From: Desulfocapsa sp.
Lineage (GTDB): Bacteria > Desulfobacterota > Desulfobulbia > Desulfobulbales > Desulfocapsaceae
Assembly (NCBI GenBank): GCA_030145625.1
Contig: JAQYVF010000018.1
Location: 1-63,270 of the forward strand
Direction: 5' to 3'
Length of the DNA: 63,270 bases
Both the position numbers and the translations under genes were made by a program. The notes under the pieces are model-generated. The model searched no databases, was not told the DNA's origin, and saw only the letters and a list, made by a program, of their open reading frames with translations. The first letter of the stretch is position 1; each line of letters opens with the position of its first letter. Shown here piece after piece: positions 56-29,344 of this stretch.

Positions 56-1070
56 ATGAAAGTGATCGATCTAGAACCAACATATTACGACACTTACTGT
101 CACTGCCTTGAAGACTGGTCTGATGAAATGACTGAGGCAAGTAACCATAGGCCACCTTGCAAAATTGCCTTTTCGCCCAAACTCTTCGTTATGAGATGAA
201 TATTATCCTCGGAATATCAAATATATGCACCACAAGGGTACTTGTACCAGTAGTTAGGGTGATTCTTGCAGGGCACCTGCGGTAAAATTTTTCTCATGCC
301 TCGATTTTGAACGAAAATTCTAATTTTTCAAGGTACCCCATAAAGAATGCTGGTACCAAAAACACAAACAAAAAGGTCTGAGAGTCAAGCTTGTACTTGA
401 AAAAGAAGGCATAGTGGCTGGAATGATCCAATACCTGCCTGTTGAAGAATCAGTTATTGACGGAAAAGGACTTTATTTTATTCCTTGTATTTGGGTACAT
501 GGAAACAAAAATGGTATCGGTGATTTTCAAGGTAAAGGCCTAGGAACAGCATTGCTTAAGGCAGCTGAAAATGATGCAAAAAATATGGGCGCGAAAGGCA
601 TGGCAGCATGGGGATTACGACTGCCTTTTTGGATGAAAGCATCCTGGTTTAAAAAACATGGATATCAGGAAGCAGACAAGGATTTCCTGAAACTTTTAGT
701 TTGGAAACCATTTTCAGACGATGCGAGCCAACCACACTGGATTCATCCCAGAAAAAAGGTTCAGAAAATTTCAGAGAAAGTGACGGTAACTGCATTTATT
801 TATGGTTGGTGTCCCGCTCAAAATATTGTTTTTGAACGGGACAAAAGAGCAAGTATGGAATTCGGTGACAAGGTAGTCTTTACAAGCCTAGACACCTCTG
901 ATCGAGAAGTATTTCTGGAATCGGGAATTTCAGATGGAATTTTTATTGATGGGGAGCAAATATCGACAGGCCCACCATTATCCTATGATAAAATTCTAAA
1001 AAAGATCGCAAAGAAAGTTAAGAAAAAGAAAACTGTGATCAAAGATAAGAGTTCGAGCAAAAAAAATTAA
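56..1070 (+). pseudogene. GNAT acetyltransferase with C-terminal YoaP domain, split by a MITE
   Basis: Bases 56-149 encode an N-terminus starting MKVIDLEPTYYDTY with a good ribosome binding site (GAGAGGGA, 42-49). The reading continues after the inserted element at about 342 (KECWYQKHKQKGLRVK) and runs to TAA at 1070. Removing the 188-bp element and one 5-bp duplication gives a continuous protein of about 273 residues: an acetyltransferase domain (acetyl-CoA loop near the GKGLGTAL segment) followed by a YoaP-like domain containing GWCPAQN. The 193-bp insertion shifts the frame and adds stops, so the protein is broken. A GTG at 414 could restart translation of the C-terminal 218 residues, but it would lack about 55 N-terminal residues. 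The substrate is unknown. The disruption is seen directly; the family assignment comes from recognition. Confidence 0.85.
150..337 (+). mobile_element. MITE-like palindromic element, copy 1 (with 48-bp internal insert)
   Basis: This copy begins GGCCACCTTG and ends CAAGGTACC. It is flanked by perfect 5-bp direct repeats CCATA (145-149 and 338-342). It matches the other three copies except for 48 extra bases at 228-275 in the loop region and a decayed left central arm. It interrupts the GNAT-YoaP gene; excision together with one CCATA exactly restores that reading frame, which proves insertion into a formerly intact gene. It has no coding capacity, so it must have been mobilised by a transposase encoded elsewhere (inference). 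Confidence 0.92.
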
Positions 1071-18086: not shown

Positions 18087-18226
18087 GGCCACCTTGCAAA
18101 ATTGCCTTTTCTCCCAAACTCTTCGTTATGAGAAAAATTTTATCCTCGGAATATCAGGTAGATGCCTGCGGTAAAATTTTTCTCATGCCTCGATTTTGAA
18201 CGAAAATTCTAATTTTTCAAGGTACC
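18087..18226 (+). mobile_element. MITE-like palindromic element, copy 2
   Basis: This 140-bp copy is flanked by perfect 5-bp duplications CTCAA (18082-18086 and 18227-18231). The central arms 18128-18142 and 18172-18186 are perfectly complementary (15 bp, 29-base loop). The outer 25-base ends are an imperfect inverted repeat (GGCCACCTTG / GGTACCTTGA). It lies between convergent genes and damages none. I take it as the best-preserved reference copy. Confidence 0.95.
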
Positions 18227-19095: not shown

Positions 19096-20778
19096 CTATT
19101 CTTCCTCTTTCAACATTTGATGTACACACTGAACGAGTTTACTCATTATTAGCGGTTTTTGAATATACTTTTTAATGCCAATCTCAATAGCCTTTTCCTT
19201 ATCGATTTTTTCACTGTAGCCGGTGCAGAGAATAACCGGAAAATCGGGCCTGACTTGCAAAACCTCTTGGGCCAGTTTGTCTCCTGTCATGGAAGGCATT
19301 GCCATATCGGTGATGAGGAGGTCATAATGATCGGGTTCTGTTTTGAAACTTTCCAGTGCCCGAGTCGGATCGGAGAAAGTTGATATCCGATATCCGTACC
19401 TGGAAAATATCTCCTTTGCCAAACCGATAAGAACAATCTCATCATCAACAAAGAGAATATGTGTATCCTTTCCCAAAAGAGTTGAAGGAGTTTCGACGAT
19501 ACCCTGAACTGTTGCTTTACTTTCTAAGGTGGGCAGATATACATGAAATGTTGTGCCCTGGCCCAATTCACTGGAAACAGATATATAGCCTCCATGATTT
19601 TGAACAATGCCATGAACCACTGCCAACCCCAACCCTGTCCCTTCCCCAACCTTCTTGGTGGTAAAATAGGGTTCAAATATTTTTTCCCTAACCTCCTTTG
19701 CGATACCTAAGCCTGTATCGCTCACCTGCAGATGCAAATAATTCCCTTGGCTTAATTCAACTCCAAGAATCGGATCATCTGCAGCAAGCTCCAATTCTGT
19801 CAATGAAATCGTCAGAGTACCACCTGTCTCACGCATGGCATGGTAGGCATTAGTGCAGAGATTCATGACGATCTGATGAATTTGGGTGGAGTCAGACAGC
19901 ACACATTTCTTAGACGCTATATTTTGTTTGATCTCAATGGAAGTAGGTATGGAGGAGCGCAGAAGCTTTAATGCTTCATTAACGACAAGAGCTATCTGCA
20001 AAGGTGTTTTTTTCTGCTCACTCTTACGACTGAAAGCAAGAATCTGTTTGATAAGTTCTCGAGCCCTGACTGCCGCCACATAAACTCCATCCAGATCTTC
20101 TCTCAGTTCCGGATCGTCATTCTGAACCATCTGGGCCAGTTCCGTGTAGCCAAAGATCGCAGAAAGGATATTGTTAAAATCATGGGCAATGCCCCCGGCC
20201 AGGGTACCTATTGCCTCCATTTTCTGCGCCTGTACCAGTTGTTGCTGTATTTTTTCTTTCTCTTTTTCCGCCTTTTTACGCTTACTGATATTACGAGTAA
20301 CCCCAAGAATACTCGTAGATTCAGTGTCTTCGTTGTACATCAGGGAGGCAACAATTTCTACCCAGACATAAGAGCCGTCCTTGTGGAGATGCTGTAATTC
20401 CAACTCCCTGTAATATCTTTCCGTTACATCTCGATGCTTACTTTTTTCCAGCTCATCCTCTATAGTTTCAAATACTAATTTACTGGATTCCGCTGTAAAG
20501 ATGTCTTCTACACCTCTAGCCATCATTTCTTCAACTGTATAACCGCATAAATGCTCTATGGACGGACTCATATACAGATAGTTAAAATCCATATCCAACA
20601 TCCAGATAACATCGGTAATGTTTTCTGCCAGCAGACGGTAACGTTTTTCACTCTCCTCCAGTTCGGAAATTTTCTTTTGCAGCTGAGGATAATAACTTTT
20701 TTGTATAGAAGTCTTGCCTAAGCCGATCAGACTGGCAATGGCTTCATCCGCCCTGCTCTTTTTAGAGGGCTTCTTCAT
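19096..20778 (-). CDS. PAS-domain hybrid histidine kinase with C-terminal receiver (ErcS-like)
   Basis: This is a 560-residue cytoplasmic hybrid kinase. A PAS domain spans about residues 45-165 (ENITDVIWMLDMDFNYLYMS). The phosphoacceptor helix has GTLAGGIAHDFNNIL with His near residue 199. The HATPase domain ends with GTGLGLAVVHGIVQNHGGYISV, and a receiver occupies about 435-560 (ILFVDDE, LLITDMAMPSMTG, KPL). It has no membrane segment, so it senses an internal signal. Its start overlaps the end of the ErcA-like gene by 17 bp, so they are translated as a pair. The ErcA/ErcS pairing known from Pseudomonas ethanol-oxidation regulation is a plausible model, but the output here is unknown. Confidence 0.9.
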   Translation of the reverse strand: MKKPSKKSRADEAIASLIGLGKTSIQKSYYPQLQKKISELEESEKRYRLLAENITDVIWMLDMDFNYLYMSPSIEHLCGYTVEEMMARGVEDIFTAESSKLVFETIEDELEKSKHRDVTERYYRELELQHLHKDGSYVWVEIVASLMYNEDTESTSILGVTRNISKRKKAEKEKEKIQQQLVQAQKMEAIGTLAGGIAHDFNNILSAIFGYTELAQMVQNDDPELREDLDGVYVAAVRARELIKQILAFSRKSEQKKTPLQIALVVNEALKLLRSSIPTSIEIKQNIASKKCVLSDSTQIHQIVMNLCTNAYHAMRETGGTLTISLTELELAADDPILGVELSQGNYLHLQVSDTGLGIAKEVREKIFEPYFTTKKVGEGTGLGLAVVHGIVQNHGGYISVSSELGQGTTFHVYLPTLESKATVQGIVETPSTLLGKDTHILFVDDEIVLIGLAKEIFSRYGYRISTFSDPTRALESFKTEPDHYDLLITDMAMPSMTGDKLAQEVLQVRPDFPVILCTGYSEKIDKEKAIEIGIKKYIQKPLIMSKLVQCVHQMLKEEE

Positions 20779-21925
20779 AAATTACCTCAATATCTCTGCG
20801 ATTCGCTCCTCGAGGGTTGGTTAATATGCAAACGTCATTAATGGCTTTTCGTGCCAAATCTGGAATATCAGCCTTTCTAACATTTACCATTTCCAGACTT
20901 TTAGAAATCCCCAGCTCATTTCTCAGATTATTAAAGTGGTTGAATATTTGAACCTTCAAATCCTTAGGTACCATTCCCCGGGTATCTATTCCCATGGTTT
21001 CGGCAACAACCTGGAACCGTTCAGGGGCAGATTGAAAATTATAGTTAATGACATGTTCCAACAGCAATGAATTACATTCGCCATGCGGCAGATCAAGAAA
21101 CCCTCCAAGGCTATGAGACATCGCATGAACCGCACCCAGCACCGCGTTGGAAAAAGCGAGGCCCGCTTCCATACTGGCAAGCATAATATTCTCCCGCACA
21201 ATGAGATCCAAGGGATTGGCTTTTATTTTGGGCAGATTGCTGCTTAAAAGCCTCATGGCAGCCAGGGCGTGCACATCAGTCATGGTCGAACTGGTAGTCG
21301 ACACATACGCCTCTACAGCATGGACCAACGCATCCATCCCCGTGCAGGAGGTCAGATAATCATCCATCGTAGTGGTTGTTTCGGGATCTATCAGGGCTAC
21401 ATCAGGAAGAACGATTTTGCTGACTATGGAAATTTTTGTCAACTTTTCCCTATTGGCAATAATACAGAACTGGGACACATCTGCTGAGGTACCGGCAGTT
21501 GTAGGTATGAATATCATCGGCGGCAGCGGTTCCTGAATCCGATCAACACCTTCATACTCAAGGATATGTCCACCATTGGAAATAACAATACCGATACCTT
21601 TGGCACAATCCATGGGGCTACCGCCACCAACGGCAATAATAGCGTCGCATTTTTCTTCCAGGTAGAGTTGCGCCCCTTTCATGACTTCTGTTGCCCTAGG
21701 ATTCGGAGTAACACCTGAGTAGGTAACGAATTCTATCCCAGCATCAGTTAAGCTGTTTTCTACTTCCTTCGTCCATCCTGCCTTGATTACGCCATCATCA
21801 GTGACGATGATAGCCTTGTTCGTGTAAAAATTTTTACAGTACTGTCCTGCCAGATTCCGTGAGCCATTACCGAAAATTATTTCAGGAGCAACAAATTTTC
21901 TTAACTTGCTTAAAGAAGAAGACAT
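20762..21925 (-). CDS. ercA: Iron-containing alcohol dehydrogenase-like protein, ErcA type
   Basis: This is a 387-residue group III dehydrogenase. The opening LRKFVAPEIIFGNGSRNLAGQY is characteristic of the ErcA branch. Nucleotide binding is shown by AVGGGSPMDCAKG. The four metal ligands appear intact: Asp and His in TGMDALVHAVEAY, and two His in VHAMSHSLGGFLDLPHGEC. In Pseudomonas, ErcA works with sensor kinases rather than as a bulk catabolic enzyme. Here its 3' end overlaps the hybrid kinase gene by 17 bp, which supports a regulatory role (inference). A true alcohol/aldehyde oxidoreductase activity cannot be excluded. Confidence 0.82.
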   Translation of the reverse strand: MSSSLSKLRKFVAPEIIFGNGSRNLAGQYCKNFYTNKAIIVTDDGVIKAGWTKEVENSLTDAGIEFVTYSGVTPNPRATEVMKGAQLYLEEKCDAIIAVGGGSPMDCAKGIGIVISNGGHILEYEGVDRIQEPLPPMIFIPTTAGTSADVSQFCIIANREKLTKISIVSKIVLPDVALIDPETTTTMDDYLTSCTGMDALVHAVEAYVSTTSSTMTDVHALAAMRLLSSNLPKIKANPLDLIVRENIMLASMEAGLAFSNAVLGAVHAMSHSLGGFLDLPHGECNSLLLEHVINYNFQSAPERFQVVAETMGIDTRGMVPKDLKVQIFNHFNNLRNELGISKSLEMVNVRKADIPDLARKAINDVCILTNPRGANRRDIEVIYEEAL

Positions 21926-22384: not shown

Positions 22385-22852
22385 ATGAAAATCATAACTA
22401 ATATTTTTTATCCTTTTTTTTCAATGGCAGCCCTTATGACCTTCTACCAACTGGGGAAATTTTATCTCTTGGAGGGGACCTATACAATCTGGCAGTCTCA
22501 TATCATGACAATTATATTCACTTCTTTAGTGGCGACAATTGTTTCCCTTGTCATGGTTAACAGAACGGAAAAGATTGAAAAGGACAGAAATGCACTCGAA
22601 TTGCGGGAGTCGAAACTCAAGACGCTCCAAATAACAATGTTTACCGTTCACCATATTGTGAATAACTTTCTCAATCGTCTGCTCCTCATACGAATTGAGG
22701 CTGAAGATGAAGGAACCATTTCACAGGAAACCCTGGAAAGACTTGAGGCGGATATTTCAGACGTCAGCAGAAAACTGGTGGCATTAAGTGAACTGGAACA
22801 TCCTGAGAATCAGGAAAATTTTAACAAATTCTTCCCCTCACAAAATAAATAA
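22385..22852 (+). CDS. Membrane protein with a kinase-like DHp helix but no ATPase domain
   Basis: This is a 155-residue protein with two membrane helices (about residues 7-28 and 40-58), a charged linker, then a helical segment TVHHIVNNFLNRLLLIRIEAE that resembles the phosphoacceptor helix of HDxxNxL-type histidine kinases, followed by a second helix with a DISDVSRKLVALSELE pattern. No HATPase domain follows, so it cannot autophosphorylate. It could be a histidine phosphotransfer or dimerisation partner for the neighbouring kinases (inference). ATG 22385 fits AAGGTGAG at 22373-22380; ATG 22382 and GTG 22376 are alternatives. It begins the rightward signalling set. Confidence 0.65.
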   Translation: MKIITNIFYPFFSMAALMTFYQLGKFYLLEGTYTIWQSHIMTIIFTSLVATIVSLVMVNRTEKIEKDRNALELRESKLKTLQITMFTVHHIVNNFLNRLLLIRIEAEDEGTISQETLERLEADISDVSRKLVALSELEHPENQENFNKFFPSQNK

Positions 22853-23117
22853 ATTGGACACCGGAAATATCTCCCTGATCATGGCGAGCATAAATCAATG
22901 TGGTGACCACCACAGGAATAAACTATAATAATGTAACCGACCTTATGTAATTCACCGCAGAACTTCGCACAAGAATGCCATCACCCCAAAACGACCAGAG
23001 TCCCAACAGTCAGGAATCATTCTTCTTTGACAATGGATTTTTCAATAAGCAGATTACTTTTCAACCTCAAAATGGTATAACTAAAAAGTAAGCAAACAAC
23101 ATGCAAAAAGGATAGAT

Positions 23118-23606
23118 ATGAAGTCCAGCAGGAAAGACACATGGTTGTTTCCGGCATTGGTAATATTTTTTCTCTTTCATACCCCTAATACACTCTGCCT
23201 TGCTGTGCCCTCCCCCACACCGCCGTCATATGTCGGATCACTGGCATGTGAACCATGTCACAAGACAGAATACGCAATTTTTGTCAGGTATGCCAAAAAA
23301 AGCAGATCGTATCAAAGCATAGAAAGACTGGAGAAAGGATTAACAGGGGATGATTTAAGAAAATGCTATGCCTGTCACACTACTGGTTACGGACAACCCG
23401 GAGGATTTATCAGCCTTGAAGAAACACCGCATTTAAAAAATGCCGGTTGCGAAGTCTGTCACGGACCCGGTTCGACTCATGTTCAGGATGAATCACTAGA
23501 CAGCATAATACGGCATCCGACACTCCAGCTTTGCAATACATGCCACACCTCAGAGAGAATCAAGGCCTTTCACTACAAGCCCCTCATCCATGGGGGAGGT
23601 CATTGA
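23118..23606 (+). CDS. Secreted tetraheme cytochrome c (c554-like family)
   Basis: This 162-residue protein has a signal peptide (about 30 residues) and four CxxCH heme-attachment motifs: CEPCH, CYACH, CEVCH and CNTCH. It is therefore an exported tetraheme cytochrome. The spacing, with CEVCHGPGS before the last heme, is that of the cytochrome c554/c-prime type cluster also seen in small periplasmic electron carriers. Its stop (TGA, 23604-23606) is one base before the ATG of the giant sensor kinase, so the two are translationally coupled. It may pass electrons or a ligand signal to the kinase's own heme motif (inference). Confidence 0.93.
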   Translation: MKSSRKDTWLFPALVIFFLFHTPNTLCLAVPSPTPPSYVGSLACEPCHKTEYAIFVRYAKKSRSYQSIERLEKGLTGDDLRKCYACHTTGYGQPGGFISLEETPHLKNAGCEVCHGPGSTHVQDESLDSIIRHPTLQLCNTCHTSERIKAFHYKPLIHGGGH

Positions 23607-23607
23607 C

Positions 23608-26600
23608 ATGTTAACCTTACGAATTTTTATTCGAAGGCATCGCAATCTCAGAAGCCTGCTTGCCTTAGGCGTCGCCATTATCATGGGAGTGGTCATATTT
23701 CTCTGCCTCACCAACCAGCGCGAAAAGATAAAGGAGAGGATGACCGCCTATGGCCAGGACATTAAGTCACTTGCCTATGCCGGTATCAAACATCCGATGT
23801 CAGGAGGCGACAGCGCTTCTATCAAGAAACAACTTATTGATATTGAAGATGAGTTGAAGAATGCTGAGATATTTATATTCGACTTTAATCAGCGCATTGT
23901 TTTTGCCACCCATGACGTTAATATCGGCCAGAATGTGTCGGACATTACCCACTATCAGGAAACATTGACCGCTCTGAAGTTGTTTCTCACCGAAAGTGGT
24001 GCACCACTCAGTTACATCGAGGAAGAGAAAGACGGCAAAAAATATCTGATTACCATCCACGCCATCCTGAATGACAATGAATGCCACCACTGTCACGGCT
24101 CCACAAGACAGGTGCTTGGCGGACTTCTAGTCAGGCAATCAACTGATGCAACCTATGCCGCTATTGCCACATTACGAAACCAGACCATCATTATTTCCAT
24201 TATCGGTGTCGGCGCCCTGCTCTTTCTCATTTATTTTCTCGTGGCAAGAATGGTGCACAAACCGATAACGGAACTGGTGGCCAAAGCAGAGCTACTGACC
24301 AGAGGGGATTATTCCGTTTCCGTTCCCGTCACCAGCGAAGACCCCATAGGTGTTCTTGGCAGCTCTTTCAATTCCATGGTACAGAGCATAAAGGCCCAGA
24401 TAGAATATGCCAACAGCCTGAAACACGTTATTGCCGACCCACTCATTTTCGTAGACAACGACCTTGTTATCTCCTTCATCAACGAGGCATGCACCCAGTT
24501 ACTTGGTTACAGCAAAGAAGAGACAGAAGGAATACTCACCTGTCGGGACATCTTTAAAAGCGATATCTGCAAAAATAAAATATGCGACACCACATGTCCC
24601 ATCAAACAATGTCTTGTCTCCGGTGAGCCTGTACAAGGCATCAGGACAACGATACTCGACATAAGAGGTCGTTCAATTCCCATCATGACAAGCGCAAATG
24701 CCCTGAAAGACGCTCATGGCAGTATCATCGGAGCGGTGGAAACATTCAGAGACATCTCTGTTGTCCTTGAGGGGGAGAGGCTGCACTTTGTCCAGCAAAC
24801 TGCTGAAAACGAAGAGGAACAGCGCAAATATCTTGAATCCAAAGCGGCCAACCTTCTTGCCGTCTTATCCCAGGTTTCAGACGGGAACCTTTCAGTGCGT
24901 GTTGCATATTCCGACAGCAATGAAGTCATGGGAAAAATTGGAGAACACATCAATGACACCCTGAACAACTTTGAAAAGATGTATGAACAAATCTCCTCAT
25001 TCGGTAAAAAAATGGAACTTGAGGTAGCCAGAAGGACCACAATGCTTCGTTCCAGAACCCTCCTGCTTGAGCGGGCCAACAGAGAACTCCAGGAACTGGA
25101 CAGGCTCAAATCTTCCTTTCTGGCCAATATGTCTCATGAGTTAAGAACCCCCATGAATTCCATCCTGGGATATACGGAACTCCTTCTGGACCTGGTTGAC
25201 GGTGAAATAAACAGTGAACAGGAAAGCAGTCTATTGAAGGTGGAGAATAATGCCAAGCATTTGATGCAACTGATAAATGATATCCTTGACATGTCAAAGA
25301 TCGAATCAGGAAAAATCGAGTTTGACATTCAAAAATCAGACATCAAAAAACTCTGTGAATCTTTTACCACTTTTTTTCATCCTGCCCTCCAGGCAAAAGA
25401 TCTCTTTTTAAAATTTGATTTTGCCGACGATCTTCCGCCGGTCTATATTGATGAAGAAAAGGTAAGACAAATTTTCAATAACTTAATAGCAAATGCCATT
25501 AAGTTTACCGAACAAGGCGGAATAACCATTCATGCAAAAAAATCGACACTGGGGATCGCTGCCGGTGATAAACCGCTTTTTGTTGAGATATGTGTGGAAG
25601 ACACCGGAATCGGCATTGAAAACGAGAATATGCGCACGCTTTTTGACAAATTCTCCCAAATAAATGTATCCACCACCCGGCAATATGAGGGAACCGGCCT
25701 TGGTCTCAGTATCGCCAGGGGACTCGTAGTGCTCCACAAAGGTGTTATTTGGGCGGATAGTACCTATGGCGAAGGCAGTAAATTTTGCTTTACCCTGCCG
25801 TCCCAGAAAGAAGTCATAGAAAATACTGAAGAACTCATCATAGAACTCTCTATGGCAGATACTCTTGCCGATTATTTTGATAAACCTGTTGAGACTTTTC
25901 TCAAGGAACCAAATTATGCAGGAAAACCAGTAAAATGCTGGGAATACACCCATTGCGGGCAGACGAGCTGTCCCGCATACGGCCACGAGGAGCGCCGCTG
26001 CTGGCTTATTTGCGGAGTTCATTGCAAAGGGGTTAAGGTAGCGAAGTACCCTGAAAAGGTGGAGTATTGCAAGGCATGTGAAATCATAGAAAATTTAGTG
26101 ATCGATGAGTACCAGAGCTGTGAGCAAACCGACAAAAGGAACTCTCCTTGCAACCCAAAAAAGAAAAAGACCATACTCGCCATTGACGACAACCCCGAGG
26201 TCATCGAACTGATCAGAAAAAATATAGGTACCGATTATAATGTTGTGGGGCACTTAACCGGCAAAAATGCCTTTGAGAAAGCGAAGGAAATAAACCCTGA
26301 AGTTATAACCCTGGACATCATGATGCCGGAAAAAGACGGTTGGCAGGTTCTGCAGGAGCTCAAGAAATCCCCTGAAACCCAAGATATTCCAGTGATTATC
26401 CTCTCTATCATTGATAATAAAAAAATGGGATTTAGTCTCGGCGCAACAGAATATATGGTAAAACCGATTAATAAAAAAACTCTGCTACATAAATTAAAAA
26501 ACCTGGAAAAAACAACAAATATTAAAAACATTCTACTCGTCGACAGTGACAAAGACACTGTGAACACCCTGGCTGTTTTACTGAACAAAGCAGGATACAA

Positions 26601-26892
26601 AATAACAAAATCTTATAATAACACAGAAGCCATACAGGCTATTCACAGATCAATCCCGGATCTGATCGTTCTTAATCCGACAATGGTCAATGAAAACCCT
26701 TTTGATATCATAGAATATTTCAAAAACGAGGAGCATATACAGAATATCCCTCTTGTCCTTATCACAGATAAGGACTTGGATGAGGATGATCTTCAAGAGC
26801 TTAACGGCAAAATCCAGGCCACCCTAAACAAGAGCGTTCTTTCGGAAAAAGACCTGGTGGAGGAATTAAAAAAAGTAATTATCAGAATGTAG
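23608..26892 (+). CDS. Hybrid sensor kinase with periplasmic CHHCH motif, CW domain and two receivers
   Basis: This 1094-residue inner-membrane kinase has, in order: a first helix (about 16-36); a periplasmic sensor domain ending in CHHCHGS (residues 159-163), a c-type heme motif; a second helix (about 193-213); HAMP; a Cys-rich PAS (about 275-385, with CPIKQC); a second HAMP-like linker; the phosphoacceptor box FLANMSHELRTPMN with His near 510; HATPase (GTGLGLSIARGLV); a Cys-rich CW domain (about 775-824); receiver 1 (from about 851, TLDIMMPEKDG intact); and receiver 2 (from about 972), whose acceptor site reads VLNPTM (Asn for Asp). ATG 23608 follows GGGGGAGG. A MITE copy begins immediately after its TAG stop. 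Confidence 0.93.
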   Translation: MLTLRIFIRRHRNLRSLLALGVAIIMGVVIFLCLTNQREKIKERMTAYGQDIKSLAYAGIKHPMSGGDSASIKKQLIDIEDELKNAEIFIFDFNQRIVFATHDVNIGQNVSDITHYQETLTALKLFLTESGAPLSYIEEEKDGKKYLITIHAILNDNECHHCHGSTRQVLGGLLVRQSTDATYAAIATLRNQTIIISIIGVGALLFLIYFLVARMVHKPITELVAKAELLTRGDYSVSVPVTSEDPIGVLGSSFNSMVQSIKAQIEYANSLKHVIADPLIFVDNDLVISFINEACTQLLGYSKEETEGILTCRDIFKSDICKNKICDTTCPIKQCLVSGEPVQGIRTTILDIRGRSIPIMTSANALKDAHGSIIGAVETFRDISVVLEGERLHFVQQTAENEEEQRKYLESKAANLLAVLSQVSDGNLSVRVAYSDSNEVMGKIGEHINDTLNNFEKMYEQISSFGKKMELEVARRTTMLRSRTLLLERANRELQELDRLKSSFLANMSHELRTPMNSILGYTELLLDLVDGEINSEQESSLLKVENNAKHLMQLINDILDMSKIESGKIEFDIQKSDIKKLCESFTTFFHPALQAKDLFLKFDFADDLPPVYIDEEKVRQIFNNLIANAIKFTEQGGITIHAKKSTLGIAAGDKPLFVEICVEDTGIGIENENMRTLFDKFSQINVSTTRQYEGTGLGLSIARGLVVLHKGVIWADSTYGEGSKFCFTLPSQKEVIENTEELIIELSMADTLADYFDKPVETFLKEPNYAGKPVKCWEYTHCGQTSCPAYGHEERRCWLICGVHCKGVKVAKYPEKVEYCKACEIIENLVIDEYQSCEQTDKRNSPCNPKKKKTILAIDDNPEVIELIRKNIGTDYNVVGHLTGKNAFEKAKEINPEVITLDIMMPEKDGWQVLQELKKSPETQDIPVIILSIIDNKKMGFSLGATEYMVKPINKKTLLHKLKNLEKTTNIKNILLVDSDKDTVNTLAVLLNKAGYKITKSYNNTEAIQAIHRSIPDLIVLNPTMVNENPFDIIEYFKNEEHIQNIPLVLITDKDLDEDDLQELNGKIQATLNKSVLSEKDLVEELKKVIIRM

Positions 26893-27032
26893 GGTACCTT
26901 GAAAAATTAGAATTTTCGTTCAAAATCGAGGCATGAGGAAAATTTTACCGCAGGCATATATTTGATATTCCGAGGATAAAATTTTCCTCATAACAAAGAG
27001 TTTGGGGGAAAAAGCAATTTTGCAAGGTAGCC
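26893..27032 (-). mobile_element. MITE-like palindromic element, copy 3 (reverse orientation)
   Basis: This 140-bp copy is flanked by perfect duplications TGTAG (26888-26892 and 27033-27037). The left duplication supplies the TAG stop of the upstream kinase gene, so the insertion left the protein unchanged. Central arms read ATGAGGAAAATTTTA and TAAAATTTTCCTCAT, fully complementary and carrying a G/C pair where copy 2 has A/T. It separates the kinase gene from the receiver gene and may form a hairpin in the operon transcript. Confidence 0.95.
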
Positions 27033-27083
27033 TGTAGTTTAAAAAATTTTCTCCTCTCTCAACTGATGCGGAGGCACAGTTTA

Positions 27084-27467
27084 ATGGGAACAGACAAAAA
27101 AAAGATACTGATCGTTGATGACAATGCAGACAGTCGTGAACTTGTGATGAAAATCCTGAGAAATAAAAATTATCAGTTATCTACTGCCATTGACGGCGAA
27201 GACGCTCTGGATAAAATCAACGAAGACAAACCCGATCTTATTCTGATGGATATTTCCATGCCCAAAATTGACGGCTATGAGCTGACACGGAGATTAAAAA
27301 AACAGGAAGCCCTTCGTGACATCAAAGTTATTGCGTTAACAGCCCATGCCATGAGAGGAGACAAAGAAAAGGCGCTTGCCTCAGGATGTCTCGGATACAT
27401 AACCAAACCGATAAATGTCCGAATATTCGGAGAGCAAATCGAATTTTTTTTAACCACATCTGATTAA
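27084..27467 (+). CDS. Single-domain response regulator (CheY/DivK-like)
   Basis: This 127-residue protein is one receiver domain: acidic pocket ILIVDDN, phosphoacceptor Asp in LILMDISMPKIDG, Thr in IALTAHAM and Lys in ITKPIN. It has no output domain, so it probably relays phosphate or acts by protein contact. ATG 27084 follows GGAGG at 27070-27074. It sits 52 bp after the MITE and 8 bp before the receiver-kinase gene, consistent with a DivK-like role between the two kinases (inference). Confidence 0.92.
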   Translation: MGTDKKKILIVDDNADSRELVMKILRNKNYQLSTAIDGEDALDKINEDKPDLILMDISMPKIDGYELTRRLKKQEALRDIKVIALTAHAMRGDKEKALASGCLGYITKPINVRIFGEQIEFFLTTSD

Positions 27468-27475
27468 GGGCAACC

Positions 27476-28558
27476 ATGGCTGCCAAATCCAGAATACTCA
27501 TTATTGATGACAATTTAGATACTGTCGAACTTTTGAGGAAAAGATTCCGCGCGGAAGGGTATGACACAGCTGAGGCCTATGACGGCATAGTGGGCCTGGA
27601 AAAAATTCGTGAGTATGATCCTGATCTTATCCTTCTTGATGTCATGATGCCTAAAATGGATGGGTATGAAGTCTGTAAAGTTGTAAACAGTGACGAAGCT
27701 ATCAAACATATCCCCAAAATTATGCTCACCGCCAAAAGCAAGGTACCCGATAAGGTGAAAGGCCTTGAAATCGGCGCAGACGACTATATCACCAAACCTT
27801 TCGATTTCAAAGAAGTAGTGGCCCGTGTACGCTCTCTTCTTGCAAAAAAACTTGAAAGCTCAGAAATAGCGGAACAGGAAAAATTTACCGCCCTGGATCA
27901 TTTCATGGATGAAGTCTCCCATGAAGTGCGGAATCCACTAGTGGCTATCGGTGGATTTGCACGACGCGTTAAAAAAAACCTCCCGGAAGGGAGTGAGAAT
28001 TATAAACATATGGACATAATTTTGCAGAATGTAGAGGTTCTGGAAAAGATGGTTCATAAGCTGATCTCCCTAAAAAGTGCAAACCTATGCTACCGGGAGT
28101 CATCAAACATCAATGAAATTGTCAAAAATGCCTTAAGCACTTATAAGCAGGAGATTAAGAAAAGACAGATCACACTTGTTACAAACTTTATGGACACCCC
28201 TCCCATAATCTGTGCCGATCAGGAAAATATCACCATGACCATCGCCCATATCATTGAGAATGCACTTGAGGCCATGGTCGAAGAAAAACGGGTGCTGACG
28301 CTCAGCACCTGCGTCAAAGAAAGATATTTTGAAATTGAAATTTCCGACACAGGAAAGGGTATAGAAAAAAGTAAGATAAAAAACATCTACGATCCTTTTT
28401 TCAGCTCAAAAACCTATGGCCCTGGCTTCGGGCTCACCTTTGCCCTGAAAACGGTACAAAGCCACAATGGCTCGATATCTGTTGAAAGCACTGAAAATCA
28501 AGGATCTACTTTCACCATCAGACTACCGATGAGATCTGTGGCAACGGAATCCAGCTAA
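27476..28558 (+). CDS. Receiver-histidine kinase fusion
   Basis: This 360-residue cytoplasmic protein has a receiver first (ILIIDDN, LILLDVMMPKMDG, ITKPF, residues about 1-120) and then a kinase: HisKA with DEVSHEVRNPLVAIGGF and HATPase with an N box (HIIENALEAM), DTGKGI and GPGFGLTFALKTVQSHNG. An N-terminal receiver on a soluble kinase usually means that phosphorylation of the receiver controls the kinase. With the upstream hybrid kinase and single receiver it forms the last step seen here in a multi-component relay. No DNA-binding output gene is next to it. Confidence 0.92.
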   Translation: MAAKSRILIIDDNLDTVELLRKRFRAEGYDTAEAYDGIVGLEKIREYDPDLILLDVMMPKMDGYEVCKVVNSDEAIKHIPKIMLTAKSKVPDKVKGLEIGADDYITKPFDFKEVVARVRSLLAKKLESSEIAEQEKFTALDHFMDEVSHEVRNPLVAIGGFARRVKKNLPEGSENYKHMDIILQNVEVLEKMVHKLISLKSANLCYRESSNINEIVKNALSTYKQEIKKRQITLVTNFMDTPPIICADQENITMTIAHIIENALEAMVEEKRVLTLSTCVKERYFEIEISDTGKGIEKSKIKNIYDPFFSSKTYGPGFGLTFALKTVQSHNGSISVESTENQGSTFTIRLPMRSVATESS

Positions 28559-28681: not shown

Positions 28682-29182
28682 TCAGGCCACCTGCTGAAAG
28701 ATATGCTTTTTGGCCCCACAGATGGGACAGCGTTCCGGCGGCTTTCCAAATTCGATGTGACCGCATACAGGACAAAGGTAAAAGTCAACCTCCTCCAGAT
28801 CCTTGCCGTTTTTTACCGCTTCAAGGGCCAGGGCGTAGAGCTTGGCATGAACCTCTTCGGCAGCCACGGCAAAACGAAACATGACCTTGGCCTTATGACC
28901 TTCCTCTTTGGCCTGCTCAACCATGGGCGGGTACATGTCTGTAAACTCATGGGTCTCGCCGTCGATTGCCTCCTGAAGATTTTCAAGCGTGGAGCCTACC
29001 ATGTCCAGAGCCTTGAGATGCCCCTCGGCATGGATCCGCTCGGCTTCGGCAGTTGTGCGAAACAACTTGGCGATATTTGACAAACCCTCTTTTTCCGCTT
29101 TTTTGGCAAAGGCCCGATATTTTTGGTTAGCCTGACTCTCTCCGGCAAAGGCATGACTCAAATTTTCTTCTGTTGTCGGCAT
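28682..29182 (-). CDS. rbr: Rubrerythrin
   Basis: This 166-residue cytoplasmic protein detoxifies hydrogen peroxide in anaerobes. The N-terminal four-helix ferritin-like domain carries the diiron ligands (E in HAFAGESQANQKY, EAERIHAEGH, and EEVHAKLY further on). The C-terminal rubredoxin domain binds one Fe through two Cys pairs, CPVCG and CPICG. The length is normal. AAGGAG lies 7 bases before the start. A MITE copy sits directly upstream of that ribosome site, so expression may differ from relatives without the insertion. Confidence 0.97.
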   Translation of the reverse strand: MPTTEENLSHAFAGESQANQKYRAFAKKAEKEGLSNIAKLFRTTAEAERIHAEGHLKALDMVGSTLENLQEAIDGETHEFTDMYPPMVEQAKEEGHKAKVMFRFAVAAEEVHAKLYALALEAVKNGKDLEEVDFYLCPVCGHIEFGKPPERCPICGAKKHIFQQVA

Positions 29183-29205: not shown

Positions 29206-29344
29206 GCCACCTTGCAAAATTGCCTTTTCGCCCAAACTCTTCGTTATGAAAAAAATTTTATCCTCGGAATATCAAACATATGCCTGCGGTAAATTTTTTT
29301 TCATGCCTCAATCTTGAACGAAAATTCTAATTTTTCAAGATACC
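29206..29344 (+). mobile_element. MITE-like palindromic element, copy 4
   Basis: This 139-bp copy is flanked by perfect duplications CTTTA (29201-29205 and 29345-29349). Its central arms carry an A/T pair where copy 2 has G/C, keeping the hairpin apart from one mismatch. It begins 24 bp upstream of the rubrerythrin start codon on the opposite strand, within the leader or promoter of that gene. Confidence 0.94.

Follow-up and report, generated by a model that had tools for sequence, protein, structure and literature searches.

We analysed computationally a 63,270-nucleotide contig of Desulfocapsa sp. (JAQYVF010000018.1, assembly GCA_030145625.1; "the window" below means this whole stretch), and in particular a locus at positions 22385-28558. 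Here five rightward open reading frames (ORFs) encode a small membrane protein, a tetraheme cytochrome c, a hybrid histidine kinase with a heme motif in its periplasmic part, a single receiver and a soluble receiver-kinase (Table 1). An original prediction had proposed a heme/redox phosphorelay at this place. The five ORFs were confirmed at the positions given there, as were the 1094-residue length of the kinase, its periplasmic CHHCH motif, the tetraheme cytochrome and the two receiver proteins. The genes had also been described as packed together, which is true of genes 2 and 3 (1 bp apart) and of genes 4 and 5 (8 bp) and does not apply to genes 1 and 2 (265 bp) or to genes 3 and 4 (173 bp). 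The 1-bp distance between cytochrome and kinase assumes the ATG at 23608, which is preceded by GGGGGAGG; an alternative in-frame ATG at 23590 would make gene 3 overlap the cytochrome gene.

Table 1. Features of the locus, in window coordinates.
Feature	Position	Strand	Description	Basis
Gene 1	22385..22852	+	155-aa membrane protein, TVHHIVNNFLN motif, H90; possible accessory component	
Inverted repeat	23054..23091	.	TTACTTTT-N22-AAAAGTAA around TGnTATAAC, an extended -10-like promoter for genes 2 and 3	sequence
Gene 2	23118..23606	+	exported c554-like cytochrome with four hemes; terminal His162 invariant	
Gene 3	23608..26892	+	hybrid histidine kinase, 1094 aa: c-heme Cache-HAMP-PAS-HisKA-HATPase-two-CW-like-REC-pseudoREC	
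Sensor domain of gene 3	23716..24177	+	periplasmic c-heme Cache sensor, residues 37-190	AF2 model, Foldseek, profile
Met64 of sensor	23797-23799	+	aligned to Met60 of GSU0935	alignment
Heme motif of sensor	24082-24096	+	CHHCH, residue 159	sequence
PAS domain of gene 3	24439..24759	+	Cys cluster C-x8-C-x4-C-x3-C-x4-C	domain scan, alignment
Two-CW-like domain of gene 3	25936..26103	+	Cys-rich, between ATPase and REC1	NF045718, E 3.6e-6
REC1 of gene 3	26173..26496	+	phospho-Asp903	domain scan, alignment
REC2 of gene 3	26527..26847	+	pseudo-receiver, Asn1023	alignment
Repeat between genes 3 and 4	26893..27036	+	~141 bp, resembling a miniature inverted-repeat transposable element; absent there in both congeners	
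Gene 4	27066..27467	+	single-domain receiver, Asp62	
Gene 5	27476..28558	+	soluble REC-HisKA-HATPase kinase, Asp55 and His149	

In gene 3 a CxxCH motif lies inside a periplasmic Cache domain ahead of the HAMP domain, the arrangement that characterises PF21563 and the sCache_heme group. The AlphaFold2 model of the sensor domain has a predicted local distance difference test score (pLDDT) of 88.3. With this model, Foldseek returned the GSU0935 structure 3b42 at the best E-value, although the superposition was poor (TM 0.41/0.47, root-mean-square deviation (rmsd) 13.7), and WalK sensor domains thereafter. VIA-align placed WalK (Z 14.9, rmsd 2.2 over 133 residues) and many Cache domains near the model, and 3b42 was not among its best 50 matches. 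The poor superposition on 3b42 may be due to the domain swap reported for GSU0935. Taken alone, the window sensor remains under the PF21563 cut-off (21.1 vs 27 bits). The profile of the paired-sensor subfamily described below has 3b42 as its best profile match (E 1.5e-10), and 32 of the 42 paired transducers match PF21563 and one matches PF11845 (E ≤1e-3). A longer sensor query that included HAMP gave matches mostly confined to about residues 160-260 and was left out of the pairing counts. By these comparisons the sensor is a member of the known c-heme Cache family of GSU0935 and GSU0582, and this homology strongly supports the covalent heme that had been proposed for it.

According to excerpts of a Geobacter review (PMC8396549), the heme ligands of GSU0935 are Met60 and His144. 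The alignment puts His163 of the window kinase at position 110 of the 3b42 chain and Met64 at position 26, the place of Met60 if His144 is taken as position 110; 3b47 has a Met in the same column. This column contains Met in 13/13 aligned kinases and in 26 of 38 paired sensors (11 Leu and 1 Ile in the others), and Met64 is a likely distal heme ligand. GSU0582 and GSU0935 of Geobacter sulfurreducens, which belong to PF21563 and are counted among the sCache_heme proteins in excerpts of a 2026 preprint (PMC12889525), are chemoreceptors. They share with gene 3 a membrane-bound architecture with one c-type heme (predicted for gene 3) in a periplasmic Cache domain, the CxxCH His, a HAMP domain below and probably, by the alignment, a Met at the ligand position. 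The comparison is one of proteins; on the side of the window, a tetraheme gene lies ahead of the sensor and the output is a hybrid kinase cassette. The motif differs as well, being C-x-H-C-H in all paired sensors read and CQSCH in GSU0935. A further c-heme chemoreceptor, DcrA of Desulfovibrio vulgaris, is reported in the review excerpts to sense redox potential and oxygen (PMC8396549); its output is chemotaxis, unlike that of the gene 3 kinase, and here too the comparison is one of proteins.

The cytochrome encoded by gene 2 has CxxCH motifs at residues 44, 83, 111 and 139 and matches PF13435 (Cytochrome_C554; E 2e-18, 67.5 bits against a cut-off of 20.8). Its profile matches cytochrome c554 (1bvb; E 1.1e-12), and the cytochrome also has matches to hydroxylamine oxidoreductases. 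The structure model has a pLDDT of 73.7, with residues 125-131 below 50, and its best Foldseek match was again 1bvb (E 0.042). Like cytochrome c554 of Nitrosomonas (PF13435), gene 2 encodes a tetraheme protein; it differs in its length (162 vs 211 aa), in its invariant terminal His and in its linkage to transducers. A scan of named genomes gave 80 cytochrome loci with a clear break in E-value, from 2e-36 to 8e-24, which separates 46 loci above (the subfamily) from 34 below (the siblings). All 46 subfamily cytochromes end in His. A terminal His is also found in 4/34 siblings, never as G-x-H, so the His by itself is not unique to the subfamily. The cytochrome of locus L112 (7537-8043, minus strand) reads C-C-A-stop-H at its second heme motif, with TGA in place of the expected Cys codon, and was excluded from alignment A2; an error, gene decay or selenocysteine may each account for this TGA.

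To describe the neighbourhood of this cytochrome we used three surveys, which partly overlap (L304, L308, L316 and L332 repeat L124, L115, L117 and L126). The phylum scan, a cytochrome search of 395 genomes, gave 44 places at E ≤1e-33, including the window, and 40 of these together with two congeners formed a pairing set of 42 loci. In 42/42 loci the next ORF after the cytochrome contains exactly one CxxCH motif, which always reads C-x-H-C-H, and this ORF begins between 17 bases inside and 179 bases past the cytochrome stop. The last three places of the phylum scan also have a C-x-H-C-H sensor directly downstream. Among the 42 aligned transducers (the window and 41 loci), 34 match MCPsignal and six combine HisKA, HATPase and a receiver; two would match neither output if these sets do not overlap, and the rows include cut and frame-shifted sequences. 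In the scan of named genomes, three of the 46 subfamily loci are cut by a contig end, and in the 43 that can be assessed the sensor is directly downstream in 39 (in another frame in L150) and directly upstream in one (L156). By comparison, a single-heme ORF follows the sibling cytochrome in 1/34 loci (L176; 39/43 vs 1/34, Fisher p 3.3e-16), and this control led us to reject a chance neighbourhood. The class survey found the cytochrome in 39 of 257 genomes; 38 further places were read in 37 loci, and all 37 assessable loci have a C-x-H-C-H sensor directly downstream. Thus, a c554-like cytochrome and a single-heme C-x-H-C-H sensor form the core unit of the system, and this unit mostly drives chemoreceptors. 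Both this pair and its most common output were overlooked in the original prediction.

The pairing was also examined from the side of the sensor. The paired-sensor profile found 54 places in 395 genomes at E ≤1e-40 (a second place in G369, at 2.2e-40, was counted in), which we call the strong class. The sensor lies beside a cytochrome in 41 of these, at a contig end in two and alone in 11; adjacency for the 41 was read by eye from match coordinates, and one place at a contig start (G134:C352) was set aside. The motifs of the lone sensors are C-R-H-C-H (three), C-H-H-C-H (three), C-Y-N-C-H (four) and C-Y-Q-C-H (one). Consequently, sensors without the middle His are paired in 0/5 cases and those with it in 41/47 (Fisher p 1.8e-4, for genomes that are related and so not independent). 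Five chemoreceptors that are near relatives of the paired sensors (L232-L235 and L240) have C-Y-N-C-H or C-Y-Q-C-H as their motif and lack a cytochrome gene; they lie beside ORFs of the sizes found in chemotaxis-type clusters. The cytochrome of L133 lies amid chemotaxis genes. A second pairing was seen at 11 loci (L249-L259), at which weaker-class C-x-K-C-H sensors lie behind sibling four-heme cytochromes; these loci were picked for a nearby cytochrome and do not give a rate, and one is known by its tblastn place only. Five other C-x-K-C-H sensors have no four-heme cytochrome in view, one of them being near a contig end. Among 11 hand-picked sensors with other motifs none has an adjoining four-heme ORF; in L244 an ORF with eight hemes lies some 3 kb downstream.

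Beyond the cytochrome-sensor pair, genes 2 to 5 together recur as a cassette. In the congeners G007 and G008 the order of all five genes is retained, which by itself proves little, since their flanking genes are kept too. Across 20 genomes of the genus, full-length matches to the sensor are confined to these two and the window's own, as is the cytochrome at E 1e-26. In 7/7 hybrid-kinase loci of the named genomes (L115, L116, L117, L118, L120, L122 and L124) the order is cytochrome, kinase, receiver, receiver-kinase. They come from Thermodesulfobacteriota and from two Nitrospirota metagenome-assembled genomes (L118 and L120). The L115 kinase lacks the receiver tail, and an additional kinase is inserted in L120. 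Further cassettes were found at L075 and L084 (L076 and L078 come from the same genomes as L116 and L122). The class survey contains 24 loci with long kinases, called by H-box motif and a length above 700 aa rather than by domain scan. Where at least 4 kb past the cytochrome could be read, the receiver is present in 21/21 and the receiver-kinase in 20/21 (the exception is L305). At L314, two successive pairs of receiver and receiver-kinase follow one cytochrome and kinase.

In a tree of 76 cytochromes (131 columns) the 12 that accompany hybrid kinases require a single change (support 84/75; 87% of bootstraps), so that the hybrid-kinase cassette appears to form a single branch among the cytochromes. 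The group tested was the hybrid-kinase cassette. Plain kinases also accompany the cytochrome (L123 and L126), and behind that of L123 come a receiver and a receiver-kinase of its own, in a layout similar to that of the cassette. It is likely that the system began as an older pair of chemoreceptor and cytochrome and later acquired a kinase relay as its output, so that the hybrid kinase would have taken the place of the chemoreceptor.

Gene 3 is a hybrid histidine kinase by its HisKA and HATPase domains and an intact receiver with a phospho-Asp. The phospho-Asp of REC1 is kept in 10/10 aligned kinases with receivers, and the corresponding position of REC2 is Asn in nine and Ser in one of the 10. 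The two-CW-like segment scores 27.3 bits, below the NF045718 curated cut-off of 35, and its Cys pattern is found in 11/11 aligned cassette kinases; the Cys-bearing PAS is found in 7/11. Both may be further redox or metal sites. Phosphorelays of the Spo0 and hybrid-kinase type likewise combine a hybrid kinase with a stand-alone receiver. The window differs from them in that the last of the linked genes encodes a soluble receiver-kinase for which no output domain was found (the domain scan of gene 5 gave no DNA-binding domain), and in that the second receiver is degenerate. The original prediction had proposed that the relay runs from the membrane kinase via the receiver to the soluble kinase. 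The conserved gene order and the intact phospho-residues agree with it, and from these we infer the direction of the relay.

The place of gene 1 is less clear. It had been called DHp-like (dimerization and histidine phosphotransfer) on the basis of its H-IVNN motif only, and this assignment found no support: Pfam gave no credible family and no DHp family for gene 1 or its fragments, and hhalign against the DHp domain of gene 5 gave a probability of 0.2% with shallow profiles. The gene is under purifying selection (nonsynonymous and synonymous divergence, dN and dS, of 0.06 and 0.69 vs G008), and H90 and the following IVNNFLN are invariant in 10/10 sequences. When the family was searched, sequences outside the genus matched only in part, over a short stretch at about residues 13-68. 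It is doubtful that gene 1 is an unrelated neighbour and that the system comprises four genes. This would fit the 265-bp gap, the conserved promoter-like block that the cytochrome has of its own and the 30/39 class genomes that have the cytochrome and lack gene 1. Against it, nine of the 10 genomes with gene 1 among the 257 of the class carry the cassette cytochrome as well (hypergeometric p 1.6e-7, without correction for kinship), and in 8/9 gene 1 shares a contig with the cytochrome, at a distance of up to about 17 kb and on either strand. It is upstream of the cassette in the window, G007, G008 and G237, downstream on the other strand in G610, G618, G620 and G393, and on a separate contig in G621; G619, a genome of 88% completeness, has gene 1 and no cytochrome match. 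A lack of synteny would have refuted the original prediction; this check came out in its favour for genes 2 to 5, and gene 1 shares the synteny in a narrow lineage only. With low confidence, we suggest that gene 1 is an accessory phosphotransfer or scaffold protein.

We regard it as an even call that the locus encodes a redox-input phosphorelay in which the cytochrome and the sensor heme exchange electrons and the kinase reads the periplasmic redox poise. The small exported tetraheme cytochrome would be the dedicated electron partner of the membrane hybrid kinase, whose periplasmic Cache domain would carry one covalent c-type heme. It is the gene pairing that suggests electron exchange between the two. 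Electrons flowing to and fro between the cytochromes of the periplasm, the tetraheme partner and the heme of the sensor would set the redox state of the sensor, and oxidation would free the sixth ligand, Met64, by analogy with GSU0582 and GSU0935, for which excerpts of PMC8396549 describe a sensor thought to be active upon oxidation with release of Met. The change would be transmitted through HAMP to the kinase, and phosphate would pass from His510 to Asp903, on to Asp62 of the single receiver and then to Asp55/His149 of the soluble receiver-kinase, which may address unlinked targets.

A wider form of this proposal, which we hold more tentatively, is that electrons act as the ligand. The cytochrome, perhaps by means of its C-terminal His and the middle His of the sensor motif, might dock on the c-heme Cache receptor and wire it to periplasmic or extracellular electron transfer, as a general two-protein input unit for chemoreceptors and kinases in Thermodesulfobacteriota (Desulfobacterota) and Nitrospirota. 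If true, this would reveal how anaerobes monitor the flow of electrons at their surface and convert it to gene regulation or movement. The excerpts differ on what c-heme receptors sense, redox in those of the Geobacter review (PMC8396549) and nitric oxide (NO) in those of the preprint (PMC12889525), and a genetically linked partner cytochrome offers a direct test. The original prediction also missed that the sensor domain belongs to a described family, and the other modules are of known types; we recognised no description of the cytochrome-sensor pairing in the literature searched, and to that extent the partner cytochrome and the cassette are new.

Several observations weigh against the redox reading or limit it. 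Eleven of the 52 assessable strong-class sensors, six of them with C-x-H-C-H, have no adjacent cytochrome, which suggests that the sensor can work without it. In three of the 43 assessable named loci (L132, L133 and L152) the sensor is out of view. The sibling control is not matched for size, since siblings are mostly larger, and among the 9/34 with frames of at most 300 aa one (L176) is paired. The alignment of Met64 with 3b42 has low posterior values, with a second Met adjacent at position 27, and 12 of 38 paired sensors carry Leu or Ile there. The cytochrome model is too poor to infer a contact surface or to place the C-terminal His. Finally, multiheme genes that could mark an electron-transfer chain were seen in few loci.

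The main rival to the redox reading, which we consider unlikely, is that the c-heme Cache domain binds NO and thereby controls the kinase, the c554-like cytochrome keeping the heme ferrous or consuming NO to tune or end the signal. Cytochrome c554 and hydroxylamine oxidoreductases, both of which the gene 2 cytochrome matches, are ammonia-oxidation enzymes. The literature excerpts also favour this rival: a signal-fused sCache_heme domain that was tested binds NO, forms no stable O2 complex and was concluded to have the properties of an NO sensor (PMC12889525), which counts against the redox reading, and oxidised GSU0582 is reported to have affinity for NO (PMC8396549). On the other hand, the Met at the ligand position, most consistently in the kinases, would hold the sixth coordination site and favours redox-linked sensing, although the force of this argument is limited because NO can displace Met.

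It is improbable that the cytochrome serves as a housekeeping electron carrier in the periplasm, kept at a level set by the kinase, and is no signal input at all. Electron carriers are often co-expressed with their regulators, as this explanation would have it. A conserved c554-type periplasmic carrier is described for syntrophic sulfate reducers in excerpts of PMC10553843, and this carrier may or may not belong to the gene 2 subfamily. However, the pairing tracks the sensor across chemoreceptor and kinase outputs, and a chemoreceptor does not regulate transcription; in addition, the strong-class sensors that lack the middle His are all unpaired. Inherited gene order without functional coupling is very improbable and largely refuted: the two congeners do retain the flanking genes as well, but the cassette of four genes keeps its order in several families and in two phyla, where its surroundings are different.

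The redox reading is supported by the genes found upstream at some of the loci. A 15-heme cytochrome gene lies directly upstream in four of 42 loci (L116, L304, L306 and L309; L304 is the genome of L124); these 42 include chemoreceptor loci and mostly have about 2.5 kb upstream in view. In L116 and L124, 22-heme and then 15-heme genes run directly into the cassette, and L124 (1-6954) also contains genes for cytochrome b561 and NHL-repeat proteins; its 15-heme and tetraheme genes are about 20 bp apart. These neighbours point to electron-transfer chains being read in at least some species. The 22-heme cluster was considered as an obligatory partner and rejected, as its homologue in the window's genome is on another contig and the congeners G010 and G012 have the cluster without the cassette cytochrome.

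The inverted repeat ahead of the cytochrome gene, with perfect 8-bp arms, has its sole exact match in its own genome at this site. The promoter-like block around it is kept in three congeneric species, with one mismatch in the right arm in G007, and on this pattern the repeat is a candidate operator. Upstream of seven other cassette cytochromes only weak matches with 3 to 6 mismatches were found, and Rfam gave no RNA family at gathering score between 21900 and 29000. The gap between genes 3 and 4 is widened in the window by the ~141-bp repeat, of which its genome contains at least 40 near-full copies (92-100%); in G007 and G008 the gap is about 28 bp and without the repeat. Within the window the left ends of four copies lie at 298-337 (-), 18187-18226 (-), 26893-26932 (+) and 29305-29344 (-). 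The locus is flanked on the opposite strand by a PAS hybrid kinase and an iron alcohol dehydrogenase (19096-21925, -) and by rubrerythrin (28682-29182, -), which are retained in the congeners.

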